Positions 24,160-27,993 of a DNA stretch of 44,332 nucleotides are shown here, one piece after another (within the stretch, counting starts at the first letter, position 1; each line of letters opens with the position of its first letter). The stretch covers positions 1 through 44,332 of the forward strand of contig VGKH01000005.1 in assembly GCA_016867135.1 (NCBI GenBank), given 5' to 3'. The notes under the pieces were generated by a model. It saw only the letters and a program-made list of their open reading frames with translations. It was not told the DNA's origin and searched no databases. This DNA comes from Candidatus Omnitrophota bacterium. GTDB lineage: Bacteria > Omnitrophota > Gorgyraeia > VGKH01. A program made the translations under genes and the position numbers.

Positions 24160-24392
24160 CACATTCGGCGACAAGCCCCAATGCTTGTCATTGGGGAGTC
24201 AGAGCCGTTCCGCTGAAGGCGGAAAAATCTTTAAAGGGCTTGTCGCTCTCAGTGTCAACACTGACCCATTCGACAGACTCAGGGTCAGTCCTGAGTGTAA
24301 TCGAAGGACTGAAGTATACCCCGTTGAGAATACAATATACAGAAGACAAGCCCCAATGCTTGCCATCGGGGTATACAAATGTGTTGACAATT
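24160..24392. repeat. Cluster of nested palindromes downstream of nnrD
   Basis: No gene is supported here. The stretch is an array of inverted repeats: GCGACAAGCCC (24168-24178) pairs with GGGCTTGTCGC (24236-24246); inside it CCCCAATG/CATTGGGG and TTCCGC/GCGGAA; then ACTGACCC (24260-24267) with GGGTCAGT (24282-24289); ACTCAGG with CCTGAGT; and GTATACCCCG near 24314 with CGGGGTATAC near 24367. The word GACAAGCCCCAATGCTTG occurs twice (24170 and 24334). This resembles dispersed palindromic repeats inserted into each other. Overlapping frames in this stretch have no protein-like sequence. Confidence 0.7.
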
Positions 24393-24473
24393 GCTGGCGT
24401 AGCTCACCTCGTGCCGAGCACACATAAATTATAGGCACTCGGTGCGAGGCAGTTGGTAGAGCAGGGGTTTTGT
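24393..24473 (+). pseudogene. 5' half of a tRNA-Thr-like gene broken by a palindrome in its D loop
   Basis: GCTGGCGTAGCTCA (24393-24406) and AGTTGGTAGAGCAGGGG followed by TTTTGT (24451-24473) together read as the acceptor strand, D arm and anticodon 5' part of a tRNA similar to the intact tRNA-Thr(TGT) 60 bases downstream. A 43-base palindrome separates them, flanked by CA on both sides. After the anticodon TGT the sequence leaves the tRNA pattern and enters another hairpin (24474-24503), so the 3' half is missing and the gene cannot be functional. Confidence 0.75.
24407..24449. repeat. 43-bp palindromic insertion within the tRNA-like D loop
   Basis: CCTCGTGCCGAG (24407-24418) pairs with CTCGGTGCGAGG (24438-24449) over 12 positions, with two G-T wobbles and a 19-base loop. 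The dinucleotide CA precedes and follows the element, and removing the element plus one CA restores a continuous tRNA D arm, which suggests insertion with a 2-bp duplication. Confidence 0.75.
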
Positions 24474-24519
24474 CCCTCGTTTTCACTCGGGATTCTTCGA
24501 GGGATCCTGAGCGACAGAG
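24474..24519. repeat. Hairpin and CCTGAGCGA-type repeat replacing the tRNA 3' half
   Basis: CCCTCG (24474-24479) pairs with CGAGGG (24498-24503), followed by ATCCTGAGCGACAGAGG. The CCTGAG(N)GCGA word recurs near 24959 and, as its complement GCTCAGG, near 25271. It begins exactly where the broken tRNA stops matching. Confidence 0.55.
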
Positions 24520-24532
24520 GAATTATACTTAC

Positions 24533-24608
24533 GCCGATGTAGCTCAGTTGGTAGAGCAGTGGTTTTGTAAACCACGGGTCGGGGGTTCGATTCCCTTCAT
24601 CGGCTCCA
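24533..24608 (+). tRNA. tRNA-Thr (anticodon TGT)
   Basis: A standard 76-base cloverleaf with encoded CCA. Acceptor GCCGATG pairs with CATCGGC, D stem GCTC/GAGC with the normal AGTTGGTA loop, anticodon stem GTGGT/ACCAC with loop TTTGTAA, T loop TTCGATT. The discriminator base is T. A broken relative lies immediately upstream. Confidence 0.97.
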
Positions 24609-24839
24609 TTTTGAAAATATTATGGCGAAGGATAAACCTCAGCTCGGAGGTTTACTTCGGCGTTGCTCAGTATGGTTCGAAGTATGGTGAGAGAAATCGA
24701 ACCACGATTCTTCTCGCCAGCTCTTTGAAAAATCAAAATTCAAAAGGCAAAATTCAAAAAGAAGCAATTCAAAATTAAAGATTTTTACTTTTGCCTTGAG
24801 TACTTTTTACTTTTGAATTTTTACTTTTGACTTTTTAAC
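24609..24839. repeat. Hairpins and AT-rich inverted repeat between tRNA-Thr and tRNA-Tyr
   Basis: No gene is supported. TAAACCTC (24633-24640) pairs perfectly with GAGGTTTA (24647-24654); TGGTTCGA (24673-24680) pairs with TCGAACCA (24697-24704). From about 24734 to 24832 the left side repeats CAAAATTCAAAA and the right side repeats ACTTTTGAATTTTT and ACTTTTGAC, so a transcript could fold into a long AT-rich hairpin ending just before tRNA-Tyr. The AATTCAAAAG word links it to 1697-1723 and to the valS insertion near 39251. Confidence 0.65.
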
Positions 24840-24923
24840 GGGCAGGTACCCAAGTGGCTAAAGGGGACAGACTGTAAATCTGTTGCACTTCGTGCTTCGG
24901 CGGTTCGAATCCGTCCCTGCCCA
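24840..24923 (+). tRNA. tRNA-Tyr (anticodon GTA)
   Basis: A class II tRNA of 84 bases with a long variable arm. Acceptor GGGCAGG pairs with CCTGCCC, the anticodon loop CTGTAAA gives GTA, and the T loop is TTCGAAT. Unlike the Met, Thr, Gly and Pro tRNAs here, CCA is not encoded: the acceptor is followed by A then TTC. The last 20 bases of the gene body (24903-24922) recur at 25353-25372 with one mismatch, and the 3' end overlaps a perfect inverted repeat. Confidence 0.96.
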
Positions 24924-24995: not shown

Positions 24996-25271
24996 ATGCC
25001 GTGGTGTGTTTATATTATTGAATGCAAGGATAAAAAACTCTATACTGGCATTACTAACGATCTGGTTAGGAGAATAAAAGAGCACAACAGTGGATATGGA
25101 TGTAGGTTTACACAATATCGCAGGCCAGTTAAGCTAGTTCACAGAAAAGAAGTTGCGACTAAGTCTGAGGCATTAAAATTGGAAGCAAGGATAAAAGGTT
25201 TAACAAGAGAGAAGAAAATAGGATTAATTGCGGGTCGGCGTCCTTCGGCCTTTTGGCCTTCCTTCGCTTAG
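24996..25271 (+). CDS. GIY-YIG nuclease-family small protein
   Basis: A 91-residue protein of the GIY-YIG superfamily (UPF0213/YhbQ-like). The core is visible at the N-terminus: VYIIECKDKKLYTGITNDLVRRIKEHN (seen in two pieces as VYIIECKDKKLYTG and ITNDLVRRIKEHN), with the catalytic-type Arg in LVRRIKEH, followed by a basic C-terminal part KLEARIKGLTREKK. The last residues (GRRPSAFWPSFA) come from a palindromic repeat (GGCCTTTTGGCC), suggesting the original stop was lost when a repeat inserted. The gene sits between tRNA-Tyr and a displaced copy of the tRNA-Tyr 3' end. Such proteins are usually of unknown role; a link to movement of this segment is only a possibility. Confidence 0.8.
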   Translation: MPWCVYIIECKDKKLYTGITNDLVRRIKEHNSGYGCRFTQYRRPVKLVHRKEVATKSEALKLEARIKGLTREKKIGLIAGRRPSAFWPSFA

Positions 25272-25352
25272 CTCAGGACTTTCGAATGACACTGAGATGG
25301 AGTCGAAGTGCAGGATTAAAATTTCATACGTGTGCAGCGGCGGAAATTTTAA
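25272..25352. repeat. Palindromic repeat segment before the tRNA-Tyr remnant
   Basis: No gene. It begins with GCTCAGGACTTTCGAATGAC and CACTGAGATGGAGTCGAAG, words of the same CCTGAGCGAAG-type repeat as near 24959, and ends with a perfect 10-bp inverted repeat: TTAAAATTTC (25316-25325) with GAAATTTTAA (25343-25352). The right arm stops exactly where the tRNA-Tyr 3' copy begins. Confidence 0.6.
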
Positions 25353-25372
25353 GTTCGAATCCGTCTCTGCCC
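25353..25372 (+). pseudogene. Displaced copy of the tRNA-Tyr 3' end
   Basis: GTTCGAATCCGTCTCTGCCC matches the T arm and acceptor 3' strand of tRNA-Tyr (24903-24922) at 19 of 20 bases, in the same orientation, 450 bases downstream. No 5' half of a tRNA is joined to it. It could be an attachment-site-like direct repeat or the remnant of a duplicated tRNA. Confidence 0.75.
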
Positions 25373-27703: not shown

Positions 27704-27738
27704 CCGAATTGCAAGATTAGAAAATTAGGGCAATTCGG
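27704..27738. repeat. Inverted repeat abutting the 5' end of tRNA-Pro
   Basis: CCGAATTGC (27704-27712) pairs perfectly with GCAATTCGG (27730-27738), 17-base spacer; the right arm includes the first three bases of tRNA-Pro. Further upstream GGTGC near 27669 pairs with GCACC near 27701 around CGAC/GTCG. The stretch from 27657 to 27735 holds no gene. Confidence 0.6.
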
Positions 27739-27814
27739 GGAGTAGCGCAGTTTGGCTTAGCGCGTTTGAATGGGGTTCAAAAGGTCGTGGGTTCAAGTCC
27801 CACCTCCCCGACCA
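27736..27814 (+). tRNA. tRNA-Pro (anticodon GGG)
   Basis: A 79-base cloverleaf with encoded CCA. Acceptor CGGGGAG pairs with CTCCCCG, D stem GCGC/GCGC with an 11-base loop, anticodon stem TTTGA/TCAAA with loop ATGGGGT (GGG), T stem GTGGG/CCCAC with TTCAAGT. Its last 19 bases up to the first C of CCA (27794-27812) recur perfectly at 27975-27993. The CCA end overlaps a palindrome, CATCCGCC/GGCGGATG (27813-27831). Confidence 0.96.
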
Positions 27815-27974: not shown

Positions 27975-27993
27975 CAAGTCCCACCTCCCCGAC
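27975..27993 (+). pseudogene. Displaced copy of the tRNA-Pro 3' end
   Basis: CAAGTCCCACCTCCCCGAC is identical to tRNA-Pro positions 27794-27812 and lies 181 bases downstream in the same orientation. No tRNA 5' half is attached. This mirrors the tRNA-Tyr case at 25353. The remaining bases to the PilZ gene at 28052 contain only its ribosome binding site. Confidence 0.8.

Follow-up and report, generated by a model that had tools for sequence, protein, structure and literature searches.

A threonine tRNA gene with anticodon UGU, lying in a 44,332-nucleotide stretch of Candidatus Omnitrophota DNA (all of which we call the window), is interrupted by three separate inserts, one per hairpin loop (D, anticodon and T). 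The anticodon-loop insert carries a second, intact tRNA-Thr with the same anticodon. The locus is a tRNA gene within a tRNA gene. We favour, with a probability of about 0.55, the reading that it reflects a recurrent process in the Omnitrophota in which small mobile units insert into the loops of tRNA genes and leave a whole tRNA gene beside or inside the broken copy. This reading builds on the positions of the inserts, their products, an enrichment and the presence or absence of units between congeners; cutting by a nuclease and insertion during repair would be the reaction that links them.

Excision of positions 24407-24451 (45 bp), 24473-24632 (160 bp) and 24653-24704 (52 bp) restored a 72-nt tRNA-Thr(UGU) with 7/7 acceptor pairs, as judged by ARAGORN (Table 1). 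An earlier note on this DNA had described a 43-bp palindrome with CA on either side that splits the D loop, and the letters are as it claimed. Its 12-bp stem was also recovered as 12 pairs, two of them G-T, and the element folds better as DNA than shuffled sequence does (z = -3.3). The letters at 24450-24473, directly 3' of the palindrome, read CAGTTGGTAGAGCAGGGGTTTTGT. The earlier note went wrong in having the tRNA stop just after the anticodon TGT at another hairpin: the 3' half is present at 24633-24652 and 24705-24721, which rules out a truncated tRNA, and what had been taken for the end of the gene belongs to the outer shell of a nested pair with the replacement tRNA-Thr(UGU) inside the anticodon-loop insert. 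Within this insert, which we call the cassette, the sequence TATACT resembles a -10 element and may be part of a promoter; a comparable right end (TATGGCGARGGA) is found in a genome of the same genus, G001. Searches of the assembly, which is 91.8% complete, found no tRNA-Thr(UGU) besides the inner gene, so the inner gene presumably does the work. tRNA-Thr(GGU) was not found in the assembly either, perhaps because of the same incompleteness, and all of the genomes used here are drafts. A cmscan of the window against Rfam at the gathering threshold matched five tRNAs only and no intron family.

Table 1. Features of the interrupted tRNA-Thr locus and of neighbouring units in the window, with the loci of a second group of GIY-YIG genes
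Feature	Position	Strand	Basis or remark
Outer tRNA-Thr(UGU) nt 1-14, acceptor 5' strand to D loop	24393..24406	+	GCTGGCGTAGCTCA; spliced copy folds in ARAGORN; G001 orthologue uninterrupted
E1 palindrome in D loop, 43 bp, 12-pair stem, 19-nt loop	24407..24449	+	member of repeat family
CA, second copy of 2-bp duplication	24450..24451	+	first copy at 24405-24406; empty site with single CA
Outer tRNA-Thr nt 15-35	24452..24472	+	GTTGGTAGAGCAGGGGTTTTG
Anticodon-loop cassette (160 bp), left part	24473..24532	+	begins TCCCTCG; short hairpin; -10-like TATACT
Intact inner tRNA-Thr(UGU), cassette cargo	24533..24608	+	ARAGORN; Rfam 72 bits
Cassette right part	24605..24632	+	end GGCGAAGGA complementary to cassette left end
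Outer tRNA-Thr nt 36-55	24633..24652	+	TAAACCTCAGCTCGGAGGTT
T-loop insert, 52 bp, weakly palindromic	24653..24704	+	
Outer tRNA-Thr nt 56-72	24705..24721	+	CGATTCTTCTCGCCAGC; G001 orthology runs on through spacer to tRNA-Tyr
Intact tRNA-Tyr(GUA), left end of second unit	24840..24923	+	
91-aa GIY-YIG nuclease ORF, UPF0213 type	24996..25271	+	PF01541 E 5e-20; matches to 1zg2 and 1ywl
Small palindrome TTAAAATTTC..GAAATTTTAA, adjoining orphan tRNA-Tyr end	25316..25352	+	read from sequence
Orphan tRNA-Tyr 3' end (nt 64-83)	25353..25372	+	19/20 identical
Intact tRNA-Pro(GGG)	27736..27814	+	
Orphan tRNA-Pro 3' end (nt 59-77)	27975..27993	+	followed in G001 by another GIY-YIG unit
Second-group GIY-YIG loci	L177 1460-1746, L180, L187, L188, L185, L186, L178; L201, L216, L219		

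Comparison with the congener G001 supplied the uninterrupted orthologue that the earlier note had proposed to look for in relatives. On contig C18 of G001, a tRNA-Thr gene reading TTGACAATT, GCTGGCG...CGCCAGC and TCTTTGAAAA is 63/72 identical to the outer gene and is collinear with it through the spacer to tRNA-Tyr, with 86% identity over window positions 24705-24923. The inner gene matches the outer tRNA-Thr of G211, a genome of another family, at 65/72 positions, the congener's gene at 61/72 and its own outer gene at 58/72. These values hint weakly that the inner gene may have been imported, a signal that rests largely on the acceptor stem. The two congeners also differ at tRNA-Pro(GGG), where G001 has a GIY-YIG unit of approximately 400 bp between repeats of the tRNA 3' end and the orthologous site in the window's genome lacks it. 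The flanks of the two congeners agree, and the differences between them are clean insertions.

The earlier note held that tRNA genes are repeated targets in this region, and broken copies do lie beside many tRNAs. In G001, a tRNA-Thr(CGU) gene is broken in the anticodon loop and holds an intact tRNA-Thr(CGU), with its D loop uninterrupted; at the orthologous locus in the window's genome, on contig C55, the anticodon-loop break is joined by two E1-type palindromes in the D loop. Nested or adjacent tRNA-Thr pairs with the same anticodon were found in the window's genome (G000; two loci), in G001 and, in other families, in G211, G355, G106, G363 and G369. The window's genome further contains broken or orphan pieces beside the same tRNA for His, Leu(UAA), Leu(CAA), Leu(GAG), Tyr, Pro(GGG), Arg(CCU) and Gly(CCC), and tRNA-Leu(CAA) is nested as tRNA-Thr is. 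Overall, broken copies stood next to intact ones for Thr, His, Leu, Tyr, Pro, Arg, Glu, Ser, Ala, Lys and Asn tRNAs. Fragment ends touched a hairpin loop in 40 of 56 cases compared with 39% expected (p 7e-7), a count in which ends from one genome are not independent. Because the patterns used in the survey derive from tRNA-Thr and favour particular inserts, the counts are lower bounds. Survey matches in G193 and G311 (L126, L127 and L129) lay away from any tRNA and resemble coding sequence; the 22-mer GTTGGTAGAGCAGCGCATTCGT, part of the tRNA-Thr(CGU) of G363, occurs at two of the G193 places (L126 and L129) without a nearby tRNA. Separately, an orphan tRNA 5' half in the window's genome (G000:C52:8238-8300; L015 338-400) breaks off within the anticodon loop, at the hairpin GCGCGAGCGAAGCGAGCGC, and a search for its partner gave none.

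Several of these units contain small GIY-YIG ORFs. The window's own tRNA-Thr unit has none, which counts against the favoured reading; the tRNA-Tyr unit that follows has one (Table 1). The window's genome gave 17 matches to PF01541, one of them with a UvrC-sized frame (421 aa) and one a fragment. A tRNA lay within 300 bp of the GIY-YIG ORF in 6/16 cases in this genome and in 17/29 in ten relatives, the latter including a few contig-edge cases with unreliable distances, giving 23/45 in total. Proximity expected by chance was about 2.7% (p about 1e-6 with n=15 and 1e-21 with n=25), and at Y1 transposase (Y1_Tnp) loci, taken mostly from the same genomes as a control, 0/20 were within 300 bp of a tRNA. 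The units take two forms. In form A, an intact tRNA is followed by the ORF and an orphan 3' end that starts in the T loop (Tyr, Leu(UAA) and Lys); the repeat at Lys is approximately 65 bp and runs through a hairpin. In form B, one or more orphan 5' parts precede the ORF and the intact tRNA (His, Arg, Glu, Ser, Ala and Asn), often with palindromes in the D and anticodon loops as well. One tRNA-Glu gene (L214) is broken in all three loops, the third of which holds the ORF and an intact tRNA-Glu. The small ORFs are of the standalone UPF0213/Slx1-like type, in that the domain makes up the whole protein and the motif residues are kept in 33 ORFs. The UPF0213 type has been grouped with the Slx1 structure-specific nucleases (PMC1564403).

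The D-loop palindrome belongs to a dispersed family of its own, E1. The further copies that the earlier note had proposed searching for exist: the core pattern matched four times in the window's genome (on C5, on C20 and twice in tandem on C55) and occurred in six of 384 class-wide genomes (G369 has 21 copies, G273 has 8), and the reversed control pattern had zero matches in the 384. Scanning 84,980 genomes, each representing one species, returned 39 stretches, nearly all from Omnitrophota, bringing the family to about 40 known copies; a single Nocardia match looks like chance. The proposed 2-bp target duplication also held up. The empty site has one CA, and among 38 distinct copies the flanks were CA/CA in 36, CG/CG in one and TA/CA in one. 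The CG/CG copy favours reading the dinucleotide as a target duplication and not as part of the element. The five bases to the left were GCTCA in 20 copies, ACTCA in 9 and ATTCA in 5, and GG followed the element in 26, giving a preferred target of (G/A)CTCA^GG. tRNA D arms fit this target because they contain GCTCA^G. With dispersed copies, inverted-repeat ends and a short target duplication, E1 is MITE-like. Being small, palindromic and dispersed, with few duplicated target bases, and occurring also in intergenic DNA and inside other repeats, it resembles REP/REPIN and MITE-like repeats, Rickettsia palindromic elements and cyanobacterial small dispersed repeats; it differs from them in its (G/A)CTCA^GG target and in its presence in tRNA gene loops, and neither a tag nor a link to a Y1 transposase was seen.

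Several identities for E1 were considered and set aside. At 47 loci, no E1 arms surrounded a GIY-YIG ORF; E1 is thus not a short form of the GIY-YIG unit, and may be unrelated to these units. Nor does it behave as a REP element mobilized by a RAYT: across the class, Y1_Tnp is frequent whether E1 is present or not, and none of the 20 Y1_Tnp loci had an E1 copy. Loop-seeking by E1 gained no support either: folding placed 3/38 of its sites in a loop compared with 131/948 control CA sites, although a minority (7/38) fell where loop meets stem in another palindrome of stem length at least 6. Most E1 copies sit outside tRNAs, and E1 is probably an independent palindrome that takes advantage of dead tRNA copies. 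At C55, a paralogue of the window's locus, the D-loop elements came after the anticodon-loop event, because G001 has the anticodon-loop break without a D-loop element, and by analogy the E1 copy in the window probably landed in a tRNA copy that was already dead. Upstream of the window's tRNA locus, a 27-bp direct repeat (24170-24196 and 24345-24371, 93% identical; GACAAGCCCCAATGCTTG...GGGG) is possibly another palindromic repeat family.

In the process that we propose, complete units would encode an Slx1-like GIY-YIG nuclease, and the whole tRNA gene that remains would keep the cell alive. The nuclease would cut or nick a tRNA gene at a loop, and repair would then join the unit at the cut together with a duplicated or imported part of the tRNA. 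Such a reaction would yield the products seen: an intact tRNA, the unit and an orphan 3' end; an orphan 5' part, the unit and an intact tRNA; or a nested pair. The dead outer copy would then be free to accept further palindromes, for instance E1 at its observed target. A broader proposal, which we put forward tentatively and at slightly less than even odds, is that these units form a mobile class that uses neither introns nor integrases: Slx1-like GIY-YIG units that settle in tRNA hairpin loops and bring or regenerate a replacement tRNA, sometimes a foreign allele. An essential single-copy RNA gene could in this way be invaded without host death, and repeated rounds could give nested tRNA-in-tRNA arrangements.

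Group I introns interrupt bacterial tRNA genes, often in the anticodon loop, and may carry homing endonucleases. The loci described here share with group I introns (PMC3984707) the interruption of tRNA genes, often at that loop, but here a second gene takes over from the broken tRNA in place of splicing; given the cmscan result for the window, we rejected a group I intron in the insert. The closest precedent for the proposed mechanism is SegB of phage T6: this GIY-YIG enzyme causes tRNA-Tyr and its own gene, segB, to be amplified in tandem (PMC13096335). This free-standing homing endonuclease of T-even phages is likewise a GIY-YIG nuclease beside tRNA genes with no intron involved. It differs in being a phage enzyme of the homing-endonuclease kind, whereas the ORFs here are short, UPF0213/Slx1-like and located in bacterial chromosomes, beside tRNAs broken in their loops. 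Among open-licence papers, none that we found describes GIY-YIG elements of bacteria breaking up tRNA genes.

The most serious alternative, although in our judgement an unlikely one, is that ordinary tandem duplication produced spare tRNA copies and that unrelated palindromes and GIY-YIG genes then accumulated in unconstrained DNA, with no targeting of tRNAs. Some observations would sit well with this. In G211, the inner and outer tRNA-Thr are near-identical (71/72), and E1 is found mostly away from tRNAs. In G106 (L217, 210-860), a broken tRNA-Ser 5' end and a palindrome form two tandem copies with no ORF between them just upstream of an intact tRNA-Ser(GCU), following a unit with a GIY-YIG ORF and an intact tRNA-Ser(UGA). 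Tandem duplication alone, however, does not place inner genes inside outer ones, and it leaves unexplained why breaks concentrate in loops and why GIY-YIG ORFs are associated with tRNAs when Y1_Tnp is not. The window's inner tRNA is also closer to the G211 gene than to its own outer copy. We prefer insertion of mobile units into tRNA loops over tandem duplication.

An intact tRNA, an insert and an orphan 3' end make up the textbook att arrangement, and the breaks in the anticodon and T loops fit known integrase sites. The units could accordingly be decayed tyrosine-integrase islands that recombined at these loops and rebuilt the tRNA by supplying a copy of its end, and att-like repeats of tRNA ends are indeed present. 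Like such islands, the units have an intact tRNA on one side and an orphan tRNA end on the other, and tRNA function in the host is kept. We nonetheless regard this origin as very unlikely: the units are 0.15-0.5 kb long, they include GIY-YIG genes, no integrase was visible in the stretches read, breaks in the D loop and orphan 5' parts occur often, and complete tRNA genes are nested. We see a very slim chance that the outer copy is functional, as a processed split or hairpin-extended tRNA or as a regulatory tRNA-like RNA. Extensions of the same three loops occur in several families and the outer cloverleaf pairing is often still intact, but several genomes (C55 and G355) have outer copies that are truncated or have decayed, the congener has none at its TGT locus, and the loops hold whole genes. 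Misassembly is hardly credible. Draft genomes with short tRNA repeats can mislead assemblers, yet the same anatomy recurs in more than ten genomes of several families, with inserts bounded at loop positions and congener flanks that agree around clean insertions.

If insertion of units into tRNA loops is correct, the small UPF0213 GIY-YIG genes, which are common and mostly unexplained in these genomes, would be parasites of tRNA genes, and a route by which DNA enters essential single-copy RNA genes would be to leave or carry a working copy. Such a process would account for duplicated tRNA genes, replaced tRNA alleles and tRNA pseudogenes in genomes of this kind, and it would serve as a warning that annotation misses broken tRNA copies. 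For these standalone Slx1-like nucleases, a defined substrate would then allow a direct test of their cutting target.

Other GIY-YIG ORFs, forming a second group, lie away from tRNAs, each within inverted repeats of 15-20 bp (ACCCCCACACCAATTAT, ACCCAGCACTAATTT, ACCCCGCCCTTTTGGCG and others; Table 1), and their existence speaks against the favoured reading. These look like small transposons with terminal inverted repeats, because two of the ends are common to different genomes. At tRNA-Leu(GAG) in the window's genome (G000:C29:9006-11407; L189 and L190), a GIY-YIG ORF is apparently split by about 2 kb of other DNA, and an orphan tRNA-Leu 5' piece lies beside its first part.
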